Source: Thermococcus guaymasensis DSM 11113 (GTDB taxonomy: Archaea; Methanobacteriota_B; Thermococci; Thermococcales; Thermococcaceae). Taken from it: a stretch of 64,000 nucleotides of DNA. The notes under the pieces were generated by a model. The model worked only from the letters and a program-made list of their open reading frames with translations. It did no database searches and was not told the origin of the DNA. The position numbers were made by a program, and so were the translations under genes. Every line of letters begins with the position of its first letter. Positions within the stretch are counted from its first letter, which is position 1. Location: contig NZ_CP007140.1 of the NCBI RefSeq assembly GCF_000816105.1, positions 124,001 through 188,000 on the forward strand. Direction: 5' to 3'. Shown in pieces: positions 3,643 to 11,748 of this stretch.

Positions 3643-6414
3643 ATGCACCTCCTCCTCAGGAAAGCCATCAAAGAGCGCTTTGGGAAGCTCAACAGGCTCC
3701 AGCAGGACGCTTTTAGAGAGGTTAGCTCGGGGAAGAGCGTTTTGATTATCGCCCCAACTGGTTCCGGAAAGACCGAGGCGGCCGTCCTGCCGGTTTTCAA
3801 CGAGATTCTTGAGGAGGGGCTCAAACCTATCTCGGCGCTCTACATAGCTCCCCTAAAAGCCCTCAACAGGGATCTGCTTGAGAGGCTCGAATGGTGGGGA
3901 AAGAAGCTGGGGATAACGGTCGAGGTCAGACACGGTGACACTTCGGCATACAAAAAGGCGAGGCAGACGAGGAACCCGCCCCAGATGCTAATAATCACCC
4001 CTGAAACTCTTGGCGTCATTCTGACCGTTAAATCGCTCAGGAAGCACCTTGAAAATGTGAAATTTGTAATCGTGGACGAGATAGCCGAGCTTGTGGACAA
4101 CAAGCGCGGGGCGCAGCTCCTCCTCAACCTTGAGCGCCTGGCCGAGATAGCCGACTTCAGAAGGATAGGTATGACTGCAACGGTGGGCAACGAGGACGAG
4201 GTGAGGGAGTGGCTGAAGGCGGACGTCATAGTCAAGCCGAGCTGGAAGAAGAGCTACCGCTTCCACGTGCTCTATCCAAAGCCTACTGAAAAGGACATGG
4301 AGCTGGCCAGAGAACTGAGTCTCTCGCCGGAGATAGCGGCGAGGCTCAGACTTTTGTGGGAGATAGTCGAGGAGCACGGAAAGGCACTCATATTCACCAA
4401 CACGCGCCAGTTCGCGGAGATTCTAGCGCACCGCCTCAAGGCCTGGGGGAAGCCGGTGGAGGTTCACCACGGCTCGCTCTCGAAGGAGGCGCGCGTTAAG
4501 GCGGAGAGGGCGCTGAAGGAGGGTAAAATCAGGGCGCTGATATGCACCTCTTCAATGGAGCTGGGAATAGACATAGGCGATGTGGACGTCGTAATCCAGT
4601 ACATGAGCCCGAGACAGGTGAACAGGCTCGTCCAGCGCGTCGGGAGGGCGAAGCACAGGATTGGCGAAGTCAGCGAGGGCTACATAATAGCGACCAACGT
4701 CGAGGACTATCTCCAGAGCCTTGTCATAGCTAAGCACGCGCTTGAGGGCCGTTTTGAAGCTGTTGAGCCAATCGGTGGACTGGACGTTCTGGCTCACTTT
4801 GTTGTAGGCCTGCTCATCGAGTATAAAAGACTGCCCCGCGAGAGGCCCTACGAGATAGCGAAGCGAGCGTACGTTTACAGGGACTTGAGCTGGAAAGACT
4901 ACCTGGATGTTCTGGGGGTTCTTGAGGACGCACGGCTCGTAGGCTACGACGAGGAGAAAAACCTCCTCTACCTGAGGAGGGGGGCCTTCCAGTACTACTA
5001 CGAGAACCTCTCGACGATTCCGGACGAGGTTTCGTGGAGGGTCTTTGACACCGGAAGCGGGCACGTCATAGGCAGGCTGGACGAGAGCTTTGTGATGGAT
5101 CTGGACGAGGGCATGGACTTCGTAATGAACGGACGGAGCTGGATAGTGCTCAAAATAGACGACGAGGCGAGGCTTCTGAAGGTGCGCGAGAGCAGGAGCC
5201 TTGAGAGCGCGATACCGAGCTGGGAGGGCGAGATGATTCCCGTTCCGTTCAGCGTTGCCCTCGACGTCGGCAGGCTGAAGAGGGAGCTAAGCTTCGACTT
5301 CGAGAAGGCGAAGGGGCTTTTGGAGGGGGTCGAGTTCAGCGAGGAGGAGCTGAGGAGGGCCTTTGAGGAGATAAAAGGCGAGCCGTTTTCGACTGACAGG
5401 GATATAGTAGTGGAGAGCACCCCCAAGGCGCTCGTCATACACGCCGATTTCGGGAACAGGGCCAACGAAGCCCTCGGACGGCTGGTTCACTCGTTCCTGA
5501 TTCTGCGCTACGGGAGGGTTTTCTCCGTCCGCTCACAGGCCCACGCGATAGTATTCAAGACGCCGTTCCAGCTGAACCCGGAGGAGGTGAAGGGCTACCT
5601 CTACCAGGAGCCGGAGAGCCTGGAGTTCATCGTTTCCCGCGCCATGAGGGACTCGCACGCCTACCGCTGGAGAATGCTTAACGTGGCGAAGCGGTTTGGG
5701 GCCCTGAGGAAGGATGCGAGGATAAGGAAGGTGGAGAGGCTCTTCGAGGACACGGTGATTGAGAGGGAAACCCTCAGCGAGCTGTACCACGACAAGGTGG
5801 ACGTTAGGAAGGGGGAGCTGGTCCTTGAGATGCTCAAGAGGGGCACGATGAGGGTGAAGACCGAGCTTAGGAGGGAGCCGTCAACGCTGGCCAGGCTCAA
5901 CATGACCGTTGGCGGTGAGTTCCTGCTCTCCGGCGTCCTGGAGAGGGACGAGATACTGGAGCTGTTCAGGAAGAGACTGCTCGAGCATGAGGTCGTCTTA
6001 GTCTGCACCAACTGCGGCTGGAACTCGAAGACGAAGGTTGTAAGGCTCCAAAACGTAAAGCTGAGGCAGTGCCCGCGCTGCGGCTCGAAGATGCTGGCTG
6101 TGGCTCATCCCATCGATGCCGAAGAGTTCCTCCCGGTGCTTGAGAAGGTTCGCCACGGGAAGCCGCTGGAGCGGAAGGAGGAGAGAACCTACAGGAAGCT
6201 CCTGAAGGCCGCTGATTTGGTCGATACCTACGGCTTTGAGGCGGTCTTAGCCCTGGCGAGCTATGGGACTGGCCCAGACACTGCGGCAAGGATTTTGGCC
6301 CAGTACAAAGGAGACGCCCTGCTCGTCGCCCTCATGGAGAGGGAGCGGCAGTTCATAAGGACGAGGCGGTTCTGGGTTGATAGGAAGGAGGAAAACAGAG
6401 AAGAGAATCAATGA
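3643..6414 (+). CDS. Lhr-family superfamily 2 ATP-dependent helicase
   Basis: Large helicase of 923 residues, the usual size for archaeal Lhr proteins (large helicase-related, SF2). In order: RecA-like domain 1 with motif I (APTGSGKTE, near residue 38), motif II as VDEIAEL instead of DEAH/DEVH, motif III-like MTAT; RecA-like domain 2 with QRVGRAKH (motif VI); a winged-helix and Lhr core; and near residue 787 a C-terminal CxxC...CxxC zinc site (CTNCGW, CPRCGS). Lhr enzymes unwind DNA or DNA/RNA hybrids and are linked to replication-coupled repair. TATA (GTTATAAAC near 3613) is about 25 bases before the ATG, so the message is probably leaderless. Which of the aLhr subgroups it belongs to is not settled here. 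Confidence 0.93.
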   Translation: MHLLLRKAIKERFGKLNRLQQDAFREVSSGKSVLIIAPTGSGKTEAAVLPVFNEILEEGLKPISALYIAPLKALNRDLLERLEWWGKKLGITVEVRHGDTSAYKKARQTRNPPQMLIITPETLGVILTVKSLRKHLENVKFVIVDEIAELVDNKRGAQLLLNLERLAEIADFRRIGMTATVGNEDEVREWLKADVIVKPSWKKSYRFHVLYPKPTEKDMELARELSLSPEIAARLRLLWEIVEEHGKALIFTNTRQFAEILAHRLKAWGKPVEVHHGSLSKEARVKAERALKEGKIRALICTSSMELGIDIGDVDVVIQYMSPRQVNRLVQRVGRAKHRIGEVSEGYIIATNVEDYLQSLVIAKHALEGRFEAVEPIGGLDVLAHFVVGLLIEYKRLPRERPYEIAKRAYVYRDLSWKDYLDVLGVLEDARLVGYDEEKNLLYLRRGAFQYYYENLSTIPDEVSWRVFDTGSGHVIGRLDESFVMDLDEGMDFVMNGRSWIVLKIDDEARLLKVRESRSLESAIPSWEGEMIPVPFSVALDVGRLKRELSFDFEKAKGLLEGVEFSEEELRRAFEEIKGEPFSTDRDIVVESTPKALVIHADFGNRANEALGRLVHSFLILRYGRVFSVRSQAHAIVFKTPFQLNPEEVKGYLYQEPESLEFIVSRAMRDSHAYRWRMLNVAKRFGALRKDARIRKVERLFEDTVIERETLSELYHDKVDVRKGELVLEMLKRGTMRVKTELRREPSTLARLNMTVGGEFLLSGVLERDEILELFRKRLLEHEVVLVCTNCGWNSKTKVVRLQNVKLRQCPRCGSKMLAVAHPIDAEEFLPVLEKVRHGKPLERKEERTYRKLLKAADLVDTYGFEAVLALASYGTGPDTAARILAQYKGDALLVALMERERQFIRTRRFWVDRKEENREENQ

Positions 6415-6473
6415 ATTACCAGTATCAAAAGTTATTTAAGTATCGCCCCAATACTTGTATAGGGGTGTTTACG

Positions 6474-7547
6474 TTGTTCAGTACACGGCCTGTAAGGGAA
6501 GAAGAAGAGCTGTTTGGCAAAGCACATAAAAGAGCCATTGAGACGCTCTGGGAAGCTACGCAGGACGGGGAGTTTGTGGCAGTTCTCGGACCCAGAAGAG
6601 TGGGAAAGACCAGCGTCATAAATGTTTTCCTGAACAAATACGGTTCAAGATTTTACTATCTGTACTACGACCTTGCCTTTGGGATGGGGCGAGAAGCGAT
6701 AAGCTACACCGAGCTGACACCGGTCAAACTCAGAGTTCCCCAGAGGAAACTCGAGTATTCGGCTTTATTGAACTTGGGTATCGTGAAAATGGATGTCCGT
6801 CCGAGGAACATCGTGGAGTTCCAGAACGCGTTTTTGGGCCTCTTAAGGTTTCTAAACGAAAAGGGGGCAAAAACCCTAATCGTTTTTGATGAAGCCCAAG
6901 TTCTTCCAAGGTTCACGCCCCTGAACACGCTCGGATTACTCCAGACGATCTCAGACTCATTCGAAAATATTTCCGTTGTTCTCACGGGTTCAATGCCCGG
7001 ACTCCTCGAAAGGATGATAAACCCAAGCGGGGAGAAGCCTTTCTTCGCCAGGTATGTGGAGAGAATCAACATAGAACGCTGGAATACCGAAGAAGGTTTT
7101 GAGTATCTAAGACGGGGCCTGCCCAACGTTGAACCGGAGGAGCTGAGGGAAGCCGTCACTGAACTCTCGGGGGTTCCTGGATTTCTCGCGTACTACGGGA
7201 AACTGAGAACAAAAGGCCTTTCCCATCTCCGTGCCCTTGAGGAGACCACGAACTACGCAGTCAGGCTTTGGAGTGAAGACCTGAGGAACTTTATCCGGAT
7301 ATACCACTCTCCAGGCTATATCGTCGCGCTCAAGAGGGTTGCCAAGGGGCCTTCATCGGGGACGAGCACGGAGGAGATAATAACCGAGGTAAAGGCAGTC
7401 CTCGGGCTCTCGGAGGTGAGAATAAAGAACATACTACGAAACCTTGTGGATGCGGGTTTGCTTCTCCGCCCAAGGAGGGGTCGTTACGTAATTCCCGAAA
7501 GGCCCCTCAGAAAGGCCGTTCTCAGATTCAACCTCCGAACCTTTTAA
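6474..7547 (+). CDS. Archaeal P-loop ATPase (PF01637 type) with winged helix
   Basis: STAND-like archaeal ATPase of about 357 residues. Walker A is GPRRVGKTS; Walker B is LIVFDEAQVL; VVLTGSMPGLL fits sensor 1. The last 100 residues look like a winged-helix domain (EVRIKNILRNLVDAGLL). Unlike its two neighbours at 8.6 and 10.3 kb it has no DUF234-like C-terminal domain. The start is taken as TTG 6474: GGGGTG lies six bases before it, and a TATA-like TTATTTAAG at 6432 would otherwise be inside the gene. The family is widespread in archaea and poorly understood; roles in mobile-element control have been suggested. The 3' end overlaps the opposite-strand gene by about 20 bases. Confidence 0.85.
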   Translation: MFSTRPVREEEELFGKAHKRAIETLWEATQDGEFVAVLGPRRVGKTSVINVFLNKYGSRFYYLYYDLAFGMGREAISYTELTPVKLRVPQRKLEYSALLNLGIVKMDVRPRNIVEFQNAFLGLLRFLNEKGAKTLIVFDEAQVLPRFTPLNTLGLLQTISDSFENISVVLTGSMPGLLERMINPSGEKPFFARYVERINIERWNTEEGFEYLRRGLPNVEPEELREAVTELSGVPGFLAYYGKLRTKGLSHLRALEETTNYAVRLWSEDLRNFIRIYHSPGYIVALKRVAKGPSSGTSTEEIITEVKAVLGLSEVRIKNILRNLVDAGLLLRPRRGRYVIPERPLRKAVLRFNLRTF

Positions 7548-8538
7548 TCCCCTCCGCCTCTCCCTTCTGAACGAGCCTCAGCAGTTTGACCGCGTGGAAG
7601 AGGGCCTCGGCATCTTCTTCCTCGATGAAACGATCTATCATCTTCAAGAGCTCTTTCTCGGCCTTTTCATGGCCTTCTCCGAGAAGTCCGAGAACTCAAG
7701 GGCCTTCGCTATCGAGAGAACCTCAGGCGGGATTCCCCCCTCAACGCCCTTCCTCGCTTTGGAGCCCTTCGGCTCTACCTTCTTTCCGCTGATCTCCGCC
7801 AAGAACTGCCTGAACTCTTCCAGTTCCGGCTCTATGTCGATGCCCGCATTCCGGAGGATCTGGAACGGGTCGTCTGCAGCTCCAGAAACAGCACGTGATG
7901 TTGCCTTCAGGTGCTTTAGGCTTTCTACTGTGGGAATCATCTTGTCGAGCACTTTAGCAGATTTCTGGATTGCCCTTACAATTACATCTTTTGTCGTATC
8001 CCTGTTTATGGGCGCGGTCCCGTATTGTTCCAGGTAGTCCAAAACGTATTCTGCAAATTCTGCTGGGTTTTTCTTGAGTTCTTCCCAGCCCTTTCCCAGG
8101 TCTGTCCAATCGTATAGCGCATCACCGATGGCATCTCCGATAGAAGAAGAACTCTTTCCCATGTGGTGAACAAGGGCCAGCGTCAGAAAACCGTGGAGCA
8201 ACGGGAGGTGAACGGCTTTTGGATTATACTCGTCACTATTTTTTTGTGATAGGGGTGTTTGTGGATCCCCTTAATATATATCCGTCTGCCTGCTTTTCTG
8301 CAGAAAGGGCCTTTGCAACCCTCTTGTATGATCCGTCGGGGCTTGCTCGGGCGAGGATCTTCAGGAAACCAATTGACGGGCTGAGATACGTGTACGCGAT
8401 GTATTTAACGTTCTCCTTCGGAAGTCCGTACTTCTTTGCGAACTCTTCCAGCTCTTCATCCCATGTTTTCTTCTTTGGTTTCTCCCCTTTCTTCTTCCCT
8501 CCGAAGATGAACATCCCTGCCACTGCCAGAAGCGACAA
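7528..8538 (-). pseudogene. Membrane-anchored protein broken by two frameshifts
   Basis: Three open segments in two frames form one gene of about 336 codons. Segment 1 starts at TTG 8538 (GGTG six bases before) with a short hydrophobic anchor ending AGMFIFGGKK. Its frame runs into a stop just after an A7 run (8241-8247); skipping one A continues it without a stop (SDEYNPKAVHLPLL) into segment 2. Near 7650-7695 a second shift, needing one extra base, leads into segment 3 (HEKAEKELLKMIDRFIEEED), which ends at 7528. Both its ends match the small gene at 9965-10288, which fixes the reading. No known domain is recognised. Either the gene is decaying, or these are homopolymer read errors; one of the two shifts lies in a homopolymer. 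Confidence 0.72.
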
Positions 8539-8620
8539 CCTCACCACCTCTCAAACTTCGACGGAATAAGAGAAAAGGTTTTCGAAACCGTTAAATAGTT
8601 GCAGTGCGATTAGTCTAATC

Positions 8621-9970
8621 ATGATGCAACAATTCGTCAACAGGAGGAGCCAGCTCGATGCCCTCAGGAGGGCCTTTGAGGGCGACAAAGCGGAGCTGAT
8701 AGTGGTTTACGGGAGGAGAAGGGTTGGGAAGACGGCGCTCGTCCTGAAGGCCGCCGAAGGGTTCAGGCACGTCTACTTCCTCGCGGACGAGAGGAGCGAA
8801 GCGGAGAACCTCGCGGAGTTCAGGAGGAAGGTGGCACAATTCCTGGGCGATGAGGTAGTTGCCCGCTCCGACCTCGGCTGGGTCGAGCTGTTCCGTCTCA
8901 TCGCGGAGCGTGGAAATGGAGTTGTCGTGATAGACGAGCTCCCCTACCTCGTTGAAGGAAACCCGGCTTTCCCCTCGGTTCTCCAGAAGGCATGGGATTT
9001 GCATCTCCAGAACTCGAAGGTCAAGCTCGTTCTCGTCGGCTCGTCAATCGGCATGATGGAGAGGCTCCTCGGCCACAAGAGCCCCCTCTACGGCAGGAGG
9101 ACGATGCAAATTGACCTCAAGCCCCTCAGGTACTGGCACGTTCCGGAGTTCCTGCCCGGCTACTCCCCCGAGGACTGGATGAGGGTTTACGGCGTTGCCG
9201 ACGGGATACCCCTCTACCTGAAGCAGTTCGACGGTAGTTCATCGTTCTGGGAGAACGTCGAGAAGCTGTTCCTCAGAAAGGAGAGCCCCCTCTACACCGA
9301 GGCGGAGTTCCTTCTCAGACAGGAGTTCAGGGAGCCGGCGCGGTACTTCTCGATACTGAAGGCGATAGCCTTTGGGAAGACGAGCTTCGGGGAGATAGTG
9401 AACTTCACTGGCTTTGACAGGGGGACAGTTTCGCGCTACCTCGACAACCTCGCCAGAATAAGGGTGATAGCCAAGGTTCACCCGGCGTTCGAGCCCGAGA
9501 AGAGGAGGAACACCCGCTACGAGTTCGCCGATAATTACTTCCGCTTCTGGTTCCGCTTCGTCTATCCGAACAGAGAGAGGATTGAGCGGGAGCTCTACAC
9601 CGAGGTTCTGAAGGACGTTAAGGCGAACTTCGACCACTACATGGGGCATGTGTTTGAGAGGGCCGCTGAGGATTTCCTGTGGCGGAGGTTCGCCTTCGAG
9701 CGGGGCGGAAGGTGGTGGCGCAGGGGAGAAGAGGTTGACTTCGTGGGCGTGAAGAACGGAACCGCGTACTTCTTCGAGGTCAAGTGGAGTAATTTAGACC
9801 ATCGGGAGGCCCTCAGAGTTCTTAAAAGGCTTGAGGAAAAGGCCGAGAACGTCAGAACCGGGGCAAAGAAAAGGTGCTTCGGCATCGTTGCAAGGGCCGT
9901 AGAGGACAAGGAAAGGCTTGAGGAGAGTGGCTTCCTCGTCTTCGAGCTCGATAACCTGTTCGCCCTATAG
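8621..9970 (+). CDS. Archaeal ATPase with C-terminal DUF234 nuclease-like domain
   Basis: Protein of 449 residues. N-terminal P-loop ATPase: Walker A YGRRRVGKTAL near residue 32, Walker B VVVIDELPYL, sensor VLVGSSIGMME. Middle winged helix (TGFDRGTVSRYLDNL). C-terminal DUF234-type region with GRWWRRGEEVDFVG...YFFEVKW, which has the D-x(n)-E-x-K spacing of the PD-(D/E)XK nuclease fold. No ribosome binding site is seen before ATG 8621, but CCGTTAAATAG near 8588 gives a TATA about 25 to 30 bases upstream, so the transcript is probably leaderless. It is paralogous to the ATPase at 10301-11692 and diverges from the broken membrane gene. The biological role of the family is not established. Confidence 0.88.
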   Translation: MMQQFVNRRSQLDALRRAFEGDKAELIVVYGRRRVGKTALVLKAAEGFRHVYFLADERSEAENLAEFRRKVAQFLGDEVVARSDLGWVELFRLIAERGNGVVVIDELPYLVEGNPAFPSVLQKAWDLHLQNSKVKLVLVGSSIGMMERLLGHKSPLYGRRTMQIDLKPLRYWHVPEFLPGYSPEDWMRVYGVADGIPLYLKQFDGSSSFWENVEKLFLRKESPLYTEAEFLLRQEFREPARYFSILKAIAFGKTSFGEIVNFTGFDRGTVSRYLDNLARIRVIAKVHPAFEPEKRRNTRYEFADNYFRFWFRFVYPNRERIERELYTEVLKDVKANFDHYMGHVFERAAEDFLWRRFAFERGGRWWRRGEEVDFVGVKNGTAYFFEVKWSNLDHREALRVLKRLEEKAENVRTGAKKRCFGIVARAVEDKERLEESGFLVFELDNLFAL

Positions 9971-10288
9971 CTCCCTCAGTCTCTCCAGTTTTCCCCTCTT
10001 TATGGCCTCAATGGCGTAGGTGTAGAGGCCGAGCCGGAGGAGAACCTCCTCCGTGGGCTTTTCCTTCGACAGCTCGGCTATCCGCGAAGAGAGCTTTTCC
10101 ACCGCCTTCCTCTTTGCCTCCTCGGTGTAGCCAGCGAACTCAAGGCCGTTGAGGATTGAGATGACTTCAAGCTTTGCCTCGGCCAGTTCTTCGGAGGGTT
10201 TGGGAACCCCTGCCATCTGCCTTTGTTTCTGGGGTTCTATCTTCTTCCCACCAAAGATGAACATCCCTGCCAACGGTAGAAGCGACAA
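9965..10288 (-). CDS. Small membrane-anchored protein, short paralogue of the broken gene at 7.5-8.5 kb
   Basis: About 107 residues starting at TTG 10288 (GGTG six bases before). It opens with LSLLPLAGMFIFGGKK, nearly the same anchor as the broken gene at 8538, and its C-terminal half (LEFAGYTEEAKRKAVEKLSS to the end) lines up with the C-terminus of that gene, so it looks like an internally deleted version. It lies immediately downstream of the ATPase gene ending at 10301, so the two are probably cotranscribed. Its stop shares the palindrome CTATAG with the stop of the convergent ATPase gene. No function is recognised; the constant pairing with ATPases suggests a membrane partner. Confidence 0.72.
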   Translation of the reverse strand: MSLLPLAGMFIFGGKKIEPQKQRQMAGVPKPSEELAEAKLEVISILNGLEFAGYTEEAKRKAVEKLSSRIAELSKEKPTEEVLLRLGLYTYAIEAIKRGKLERLREL

Positions 10289-10300
10289 GGACACCACCCC

Positions 10301-11692
10301 TCACCCTACGGCATCAGGAGAAATAAGGCTTTCGAAATCCTCCAAATCCCAGACGAGATAGCCCTCTTCCCTAAGCTCATCTTTCCCCTCGACGCTCCTC
10401 GCGATGAGGCCGAACCTGAAAGCACCGTCAAAGCGGACGAGCGTTGATTTGCCCTCCAGCGTCCTAAGAACCCTTCTCGCGTCCCTCTCGCTCAGGTCTC
10501 GCCACTTGACCTCAATCAGCAAAGCCTCCTTCTCCCGCTCGTTCAGAGCGAGCAGGTCAATCTCCTCTCCCCTGTGCCACCAGCGGCCGATTTTGGCGAA
10601 TCTAAAGGGAAGCCTTCCACTCCCGTTGAGTCTGATGAGAAACTCCTTCGCAATTTCCTCAAAGACCCAGCCGAGATATTCGTTGAAGTCCTCCATAGCA
10701 AGCTCGACGAGGATATCACCCTGCCCCGTCTCTATCAGGTCGGCGTTGGGGTGGACGTAGCGGAACCAGAAGGCGAAGTAGGGGTCGCTTATATAGTAGC
10801 GCCCCTTCCTGCTCTTCCTGCTCGCGGTAACGGGAATCTCTCGCCTCACAAAGCCCAGGTCGCTTAAAACGCTTAAATATTTGGCCGCGGTTCCGCGCTC
10901 AAGGCCCGTCTCGTTCATTATCTCGCCGAGCGTTGTCTTCCCTCTGGCTATGGCCTCCATCACAGCGAAGTAGTTCCTCGGCTCCTCAAGCTCCTCCATG
11001 AGGACGAACCGGGCATCCCCGTAGAGGAAAGAGTCCGGGCGGAAGTAGTCTAAGAGGTTCTCCTCTATGCTTTTAGAGTCGTCGAACTCCAGCAGGTAGG
11101 CCGGTGTACCCCCGAGGATTCCGTAGGCCTTCACAAAGTCTTCAAGCGAATATCTCGGCAAAAATTCCCCCGCCTCAAAGAAGCCAAGCGGCGAGACCTT
11201 CAGCTGGGCGGTTCTTCTTCCGTAAATCGGGCTTTTGTAGCCAAGCAGTTTTTCCATCATGCTTATTGACGAGCCGCAGATTACGAGGAAGATTCTGCCC
11301 TTGGAGAGCTTTAAGTCCCAGTACTCCTGGAGTATTGAGGGCAGGGAGGGGTTTCCCTTAACGAGGTAAGGGAACTCGTCAATGACCACGGCGAGCCTTT
11401 TCCCTACCCTCTGATGGAGGTATTCAAAGAAAGCGTCCCAGCTTCTGAAGGGGTTTTTCATGAGGAACTCGTCCCCAAAGTGCTCGGCAATCCTTTGGGA
11501 AAAGCGCCTGAGGTTTTCCGCCTCGCTGGTCTCCCTCGCAAGGAGGTAAATCCCCCCTCTCCTCCGCAGAAATTCGAGGAGCAGAGCCGTTTTACCCACT
11601 CTCCGCCTCCCGTAGACGACTATGAACTCTGCTCTATTGCTTTTAAATCTCTCCTCAAGAAGTGAGAGCTCGGACTTTCTGTTGATGAACAT
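10301..11692 (-). CDS. Archaeal ATPase with C-terminal DUF234 nuclease-like domain
   Basis: About 463 residues. Walker A YGRRRVGKTALL, Walker B VVIDEFPYL, sensor ICGSSISMME, then a winged helix (TGLERGTAAKYLSVL) and a DUF234 region with GRWWHRGEEIDLL...LIEVKW (PD-(D/E)XK-like spacing). Clearly paralogous to the gene at 8621. The start is ATG 11692 with GGTG six bases before; a TATA box (TTTTTAAATAG on the minus strand, about 11724-11734) precedes it, and a 23-bp perfect palindrome lies just upstream of that. It is followed within a few bases by the small membrane-anchored gene, a likely two-gene operon. Confidence 0.88.
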   Translation of the reverse strand: MFINRKSELSLLEERFKSNRAEFIVVYGRRRVGKTALLLEFLRRRGGIYLLARETSEAENLRRFSQRIAEHFGDEFLMKNPFRSWDAFFEYLHQRVGKRLAVVIDEFPYLVKGNPSLPSILQEYWDLKLSKGRIFLVICGSSISMMEKLLGYKSPIYGRRTAQLKVSPLGFFEAGEFLPRYSLEDFVKAYGILGGTPAYLLEFDDSKSIEENLLDYFRPDSFLYGDARFVLMEELEEPRNYFAVMEAIARGKTTLGEIMNETGLERGTAAKYLSVLSDLGFVRREIPVTASRKSRKGRYYISDPYFAFWFRYVHPNADLIETGQGDILVELAMEDFNEYLGWVFEEIAKEFLIRLNGSGRLPFRFAKIGRWWHRGEEIDLLALNEREKEALLIEVKWRDLSERDARRVLRTLEGKSTLVRFDGAFRFGLIARSVEGKDELREEGYLVWDLEDFESLISPDAVG

Positions 11693-11748
11693 TATACTCA
11701 CCAGTAAATTACCCGCGAGTAAACTATTTAAAAATTACGGAAGCAATG

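Follow-up and report, generated by a model that had tools for sequence, protein, structure and literature searches.

Frame breaks at simple repeats in a gene family of Thermococcaceae suggest slipped-strand phase variation next to candidate defence ATPases

Simple sequence repeat (SSR) contingency loci are known from bacteria such as Haemophilus, Neisseria and Campylobacter, in which simple repeats near the 5' end of a gene switch its frame, ON and OFF alleles occur among relatives, several copies are present per genome and the reading frame is otherwise conserved. Here we describe a gene family with the same features, designated Y, two copies of which (Y1 and Y2) lie beside ATPase genes in a stretch of 64,000 nucleotides (nt) from the 1.92-Mb genome of Thermococcus guaymasensis DSM 11113, a member of the Thermococcaceae (G000:C1:124001-188000, the whole of which is called the window). 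Y differs from the bacterial loci in belonging to hyperthermophilic archaea and in having mostly short dinucleotide and A tracts, switching being suggested here by sequence comparison. Mismatch repair of the NucS/EndoMS type is present in Thermococcus. It is also a feature of mycobacteria, in which NucS-linked homopolymer phase variation offers a second parallel, as NucS of Mycobacterium smegmatis leaves 1-2 bp indels unrepaired and the authors tie this point to mycobacterial phase variation (PMC11551767), but the domain of life, the repeats and the genes are different. Repeats near recurrent frame transitions were also taken as phase variation in the GeneTack frame-transition clusters, which we compared by the main text of that study, and this main text contains neither "Thermococcus" nor "Pyrococcus" (PMC3711429). 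In a 2025 review of phase variation, archaeal loci appear solely as a prospect for later work (PMC11868660), and full-text literature searches, whose coverage is incomplete and does not prove priority, found no archaeal case of SSR phase variation. The kind of switch is already known from bacteria; what would be new is an SSR-switched gene family in archaea, which is apparently undescribed.

The ATPases next to Y have described counterparts in the candidate defence genes PDC-S27 (PF01637-DUF234) and PDC-S01 (AAA_14-DUF4143), which they match by profile and in which an ATPase is likewise fused to a PD-(D/E)XK-type domain (PMC12988326). Most PDCs, including PDC-S27, await experimental validation (PMC12988326). 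Whereas these are described as single-gene candidates, an ATPase and Y form a pair in half of those Y loci for which upstream sequence is available, and the putative Y promoter then lies inside the ATPase 3' end.

Frame breaks at simple repeats in the Y family

We compared the window with 94 Thermococcaceae genomes and 21 other sampled members of the phylum, one genome per species, in which homologous loci carry labels of the form L0xx or L1xx. Nearly all Y genes are split at the same place into two reading frames, an N part and a C part, while intact members encode 329-460 amino acids (aa); these breaks are the dominant feature of the family and were overlooked in the original prediction for this locus. 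On a profile built from intact Y members (A1, 331 positions), 39 of 55 breaks fall at positions 60-100, or 12% of the gene (binomial p 2e-23 against a uniform distribution over the 331 positions), and 38 of these 39 have a repeat at the junction compared to 16% of background stretches of the same width. The tracts are (TA)n, (CA)n, (GA)n and A6-8, and are characteristic of subfamilies: (TA)n encodes part of DYIYIRSI, A7-8 part of YKKY or VKKIL and (GA)n part of RERDP, with (CA)n in NTHTH of more distant members. A repeat is present in nt 160-300 of 38 of 52 Y genes as against 1.5% of random 140-nt stretches, making it about 50 times commoner. TA tracts of at least four units reach 2.61 per kb in this zone, whereas 942 kb of flanking DNA contain 0.015 per kb, and from nt 300 to the end of the same genes repeats are at background and such TA tracts are absent. 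The peptide IYI is written with at least four TA units in 21 of 25 Y cases versus one of 29 occurrences of IYI or YIY elsewhere, so that codon choice keeps the repeat. Censuses of the 94 genomes by pattern search located (AC)n of at least six units at only four places, three in the Y superfamily and the fourth non-coding, and (TA)n of at least six units at four places, the longest of which, (TA)9, is inside an intact Y gene.

Y is probably a phase-variable gene family of the Thermococcaceae of the slipped-strand type, to which we assign a probability of roughly 0.68. Three properties of an SSR contingency locus were found, namely a repeat in the coding region, length differences among relatives that shift the frame, and both ON and OFF alleles with selection. 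Relatives form a series of tract lengths, with TA tracts differing by 0, -2, -4 or -6 nt, A7 alongside A8, and GA variants; the syntenic loci L043 and L052, 93% identical over 7.3 kb, differ in the A tract and by 4 nt in the GA tract. Most copies are OFF, reduced to leader and N part, and a minority are ON. The ratio of nonsynonymous to synonymous substitution rates (dN/dS) is mostly 0.05-0.3 in OFF genes, for the N part as well as the C part and including comparisons between two broken genes, which points to purifying selection on both halves. Repeats about 60-100 codons into the gene would slip during replication, probably escaping NucS/EndoMS, and so switch each copy reversibly, leaving the net frame random and most copies OFF; several copies per genome would then generate a mosaic population.

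A conserved programmed shift, ribosomal or by transcriptional slippage, would instead let the tracts yield full-length Y from a broken gene, and the presence of A7-A8 runs, which are slippery for both ribosome and polymerase (PMC3711429), as well as the conservation of both halves would suit such a mechanism. It does not predict random frames, however, and net frames across the repeat zone fall at random into the three classes, with both directions and frame 0 about equally frequent (15:21:18, p 0.61), as expected of free slippage; in addition, the tracts are of different kinds (TA, CA, GA and A), and L110, L113 and Y1 have two of them. Programmed shifting was dropped on the uniformity of the frame classes and is very improbable. 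We give similarly little credence to a split design with two separate proteins, one for each part, the C-terminal one having its own start or coupled translation. The two ORFs (open reading frames) usually overlap or abut as this would require, but an SD-like (Shine-Dalgarno-like) site and start codon are found near the junction in only five of 35 C-part ORFs, homology begins at the tract and not at a conserved start codon, and intact fusions exist. Errors of sequencing or assembly at repeats, judged here from assemblies rather than reads, are common at homopolymers in some technologies, yet 47 of 48 neighbouring DUF234 ATPases are intact compared to six of 51 Y genes in one piece, which argues against both error and regional decay. 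Dinucleotide indels of 2 and 4 nt recur, moreover, in many independent genomes, single-contig ones included, and error is hardly credible as the explanation.

Decay of a dispensable gene, with a mutational hot spot at which copies die one by one and never return to ON, has to be taken more seriously, and we consider it unlikely. Between 83 and 88% of copies are broken, additional breaks occur in Y1, L096, L100 and L088, solo leader remnants are left at L041, L044 and L049, and repeats are in any case the usual sites of indels. Against this, breaks would not be expected to concentrate as they do, most downstream halves stay otherwise open over some 250 codons and have low dN/dS, even when two OFF genes are compared, copies persist in half of the family's genomes, and repeat codons, which should erode in dying genes, are kept far above chance.

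Several observations nevertheless weigh against phase variation of Y. Reversibility is deduced from comparison between species and not from a clonal or strain series, most tracts are short (A7, (TA)4-5) relative to bacterial switches, and the indel-blindness of NucS comes from mycobacteria rather than Thermococcus. The low dN/dS could date in part from before inactivation, and some copies with extra breaks may be true pseudogenes, including Y1, in which one break is not at a repeat. Intact genes with interrupted tracts (L040, L042) or no tract (L093) also exist, and these may be constitutive for that reason. Furthermore, a DUF234 gene is absent from the 2.5 kb around some 40% of the Y copies, and the majority of DUF234 genes come without Y.

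Two side observations concern the repeats themselves. In L110 and L113, one related gene carries two (CA)n tracts about 120 nt apart, with the frame switching exactly at each. At L139 (G071:C1:438882-438893) an (AT)7 tract appears to lie inside a different small reading frame (..VEYIYIYDEHGRIKGVIVPPELWEKLKGEL), which may be one more gene switched by repeats.

Leader, promoter and neighbouring ATPases

Profile A1 detects Y in 46 of the 94 Thermococcaceae genomes, with up to 10 matches per genome, and in none of the 21 other members of the phylum. Its N-terminal leader, as a degenerate pattern, occurs at 39 places in 28 of the 94 genomes; the reversed control pattern gives no match, so the occurrence of the leader is not due to chance. 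A search of metagenome contigs gave 11 loci, from metagenome-assembled genomes, in which relatives of the window genome may be left out. The family is not obviously viral, since plasmid and phage collections (tblastn) and IMG/VR contain no match to Y, and an origin of the Y copies as pieces captured from a viral gene was dropped as no viral homologue was found.

The DNA upstream of the leader is conserved: TTCGAAAGGCTTATCTC comes first, GAAGTTTGA and GGGTGGTG lie behind it, and a TTG or ATG leads into TCGCTTCTGCC. We take TTCGAAAGGCTTATCTC to be an archaeal promoter resembling B recognition element (BRE) and TATA sequences. Because L056, L057 and L061 have an ATG at the same place behind the conserved SD-like sequence GGTGGTG, Y probably starts with the TTG at 8538 and 10288 in the window, and the leader most likely reads MSLLPLAGMFIFGGKK, this start giving MSLLxxAGMFIFGGKK. 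The hydrophobic part of the leader is 14 residues long, or nine in homologues with MIGMFIFGG, and has a mean hydropathy of 1.7-1.9. Judged by length and hydropathy, such a stretch of 9-14 residues lies below the transmembrane criterion of about 18 residues, so that the membrane anchor originally proposed was not supported; a shallow membrane insertion is possible. At L113:5256-8373 (minus strand) the same promoter and SD sequence follow a DUF234 ATPase and precede a different leader (VVRYVYARTGKKHKKF), so the cassette is used with leaders of more than one type.

A DUF234 gene is present within 2.5 kb of 33 of 57 Y copies and some ATPase near 40 of 57, where a proximity of about 2-3% is expected from the 7-9 DUF234 genes of a 2-Mb genome. 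The repeated association of leader and ATPase noticed in the window therefore extends well beyond it and far above chance, and a leader family found mostly away from ATPases, which would have spoken against the pairing, is not what the genomes contain. That the leader always stands beside PF01637/DUF234 genes proved correct as a strong link and incorrect as an exclusive one, given the DUF234 ATPases without Y. Upstream sequence is available for 54 Y loci; in 24 of them Y directly follows a DUF234 ATPase on its own strand, which in most cases ends 32-37 nt (about 34) before the leader motif, and three more have an AAA_14/DUF4143 ATPase of the PDC-S01 type attached there. ATPases joined to Y end in ..WDLxDFERLISSxxEV or similar and DUF234 ATPases without Y end differently, a shared C-terminus explained by the last ATPase codons being the Y promoter. 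The unit that emerges in about half of the loci is a promoter, SD sequence and leader lying within the 3' end of a gene for a PD-(D/E)XK ATPase or immediately after it, the ATPase being of the PF01637-DUF234 or sometimes the AAA_14-DUF4143 type; the unit precedes a modular protein predicted to be all-helical. The ATPase of L071 matches PDC-S01 (E 2e-96).

A second protein, X, is encoded directly upstream of long intact Y genes in L059, L067 and L071 and in the relatives L107, L114 and L120. It has a Gly-rich hydrophobic segment near its C-terminus and a short tail (..GDVDYLTVAINPG..), making it a candidate membrane partner, and was found in nine of the 94 genomes and not detected in that of the window. 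Its coordinates in two loci are:

L071:6232-7857, X; itself begins with a leader (LSLLALTGMLIFEGKK)
L067:6774-7715, X

Possible function of Y

Searches of Y and X against Pfam, PHROGs and NCBIfam gave chance-level matches only, and a sequence search of the PDB with the Y profile returned nothing meaningful. As regards a polymorphic toxin system, made up of a secretion domain, a toxin domain and a cognate immunity gene, the comparison covers the protein domains: the Y body is modular, its N and C modules being swapped between members, and is without a Pfam, PHROGs or NCBIfam domain. An AlphaFold model of the body from 12 sequences is all-helical with a mean pLDDT (predicted local distance difference test) of 69, and Foldseek assigned it no fold (best E 0.3 in PDB and 1.0 in BFVD). 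Rfam had no match in the locus, and a sigma-70 promoter scan was set aside as irrelevant to archaea.

Phase variation commonly governs surface structures or restriction systems under phage or host selection. These usual targets, together with the ATPases being candidate defence genes, favour a function in conflict, the most likely role we can suggest for Y, albeit tentatively and with Y being costly when ON. More speculatively, Y may work with the neighbouring ATPase/nuclease against mobile elements or rivals, as its membrane-associated partner or effector. It is conceivable, at somewhat less than even odds, that the whole forms a true SSR contingency system in which several polymorphic membrane-associated effector copies per genome, switched by dinucleotide or homopolymer slippage and paired with a candidate-defence ATPase-nuclease, provide bet-hedged immunity or antagonism. 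If true, this would be the first of its kind to be described from archaea. Y may also be a partner for PDC-S27 and PDC-S01, which are very common uncharacterised candidate defence ATPases of archaea. The occurrence of the family in genetically tractable Thermococcales makes repeat switching testable in a hyperthermophile with NucS-type mismatch repair, and annotation pipelines may label Y genes as pseudogenes or split them.

The window locus and its two Y copies

The features of the locus are as follows (strand in brackets).

6411-7547 (+), ATPase A: PF13173/PF01637 ATPase without DUF234, with an AbiEi_4-like winged-helix end
7528-8538 (-), Y1: leader (MSLLAVAGMFIFGGKKK), N part, helical core, FRQFLAEISGKK linker and C-module; four frame segments, OFF; presumed TTG start
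8274-8281 (-), first frame break of Y1: (AT)4 tract, 4 nt shorter than in the homologue L061
8239-8245 (-), second frame break of Y1: A7 tract, the stop of the N-terminal ORF (8236-8238) directly following it
7655-7675, approximate (near 7665) (-), third frame break of Y1, nearest its 3' end: ATGAAAAGGCC, lacking one base, no long repeat
8539-8620 (no strand), intergenic region from which Y1 and ATPase B diverge: contains a Y promoter-like element TTTCGAAAACCTTTTC and SD-like GAGGTGGTG
8621-9970 (+), ATPase B: PF01637 and DUF234, Walker A GRRRVGKT, PD-(D/E)XK-like EEVDF..FFEVK; PDC-S27
9965-10288 (-), Y2: leader joined in frame to a short C-module at a common GKK (FGGKK / SGKKIEP); presumed TTG start
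10292-10336 (-), Y2 promoter-like element TTCGAAAGCCTTATTTC and SD-like GGGGTGGTG: lying inside the 3' end of ATPase C, stop codon included; a conserved feature of most Y loci
10301-11701 (-), ATPase C: PF01637 and DUF234 (GEEIDLL..LIEVK); PDC-S27; the Y promoter cassette supplies the codons of its C-terminus WDLEDFESLISPDAVG

Profile searches confirm the two PF01637-DUF234 ATPases that had been recognised here, each adjoining a gene that starts with the same leader, with E values of 2.6e-29 and 1.7e-38 for PF01637 and 2.6e-24 and 2.6e-35 for DUF234 in ATPases B and C, respectively. Both match PADLOC PDC-S27 (E 6e-48 and 3e-51) and, read by eye from the sequence, retain intact Walker A and PD-(D/E)XK residues; a role in defence or conflict is plausible for them. 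The similar helical C-terminal parts seen in the two Y proteins are likewise real, as the C-module of the protein read from 9965-10297 (LEVISILNGLEFAGYTEEA..) can be aligned to the terminal part of the intact L040 homologue. The shared leader of the two genes also stands, but 7528-8538 is not the single open frame it had been taken for, consisting of four successive segments separated by three frame breaks. Read in order, Y1 runs from the leader to the TA tract (8274-8281), goes on briefly to A7 (8239-8245), and continues through the core and the third break into a C-module ending at 7528-7530. Two of these breaks coincide with repeats but the third does not, so that Y1 is OFF and is probably decaying. 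Y2 lacks both the repeat zone and the helical core, consistent with a deletion derivative that arose by in-frame loss between similar GKK-coding stretches (..FGGKK in the leader and ..SGKKIEP in the linker). Related cassettes accompany two other DUF234 genes of the same genome: behind L006 comes a 129-aa ORF in which a different N-terminus joins a short C-module, and L002 itself ends in ..ERLISFEGEV.

The third ATPase, reported to lie beside the DUF234 pair and to be without that domain, is indeed present as ATPase A. It is convergent with Y1, the 3' ends overlapping, and homologues 76-94% identical (tblastn) are convergent to Y in L046, L058, L068 and L072 with a 13-nt 3' overlap; the recurrence of this arrangement in four other genomes suggests that the third ATPase may belong to the Y locus. 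Between Y and a divergent B-type DUF234 ATPase, finally, a near-identical element TTGCATCATGATTAGACTAATCG..TTGCAACTATTTAA is found at 8548-8620 of the window and in L057 and L062, and is possibly a regulator site.

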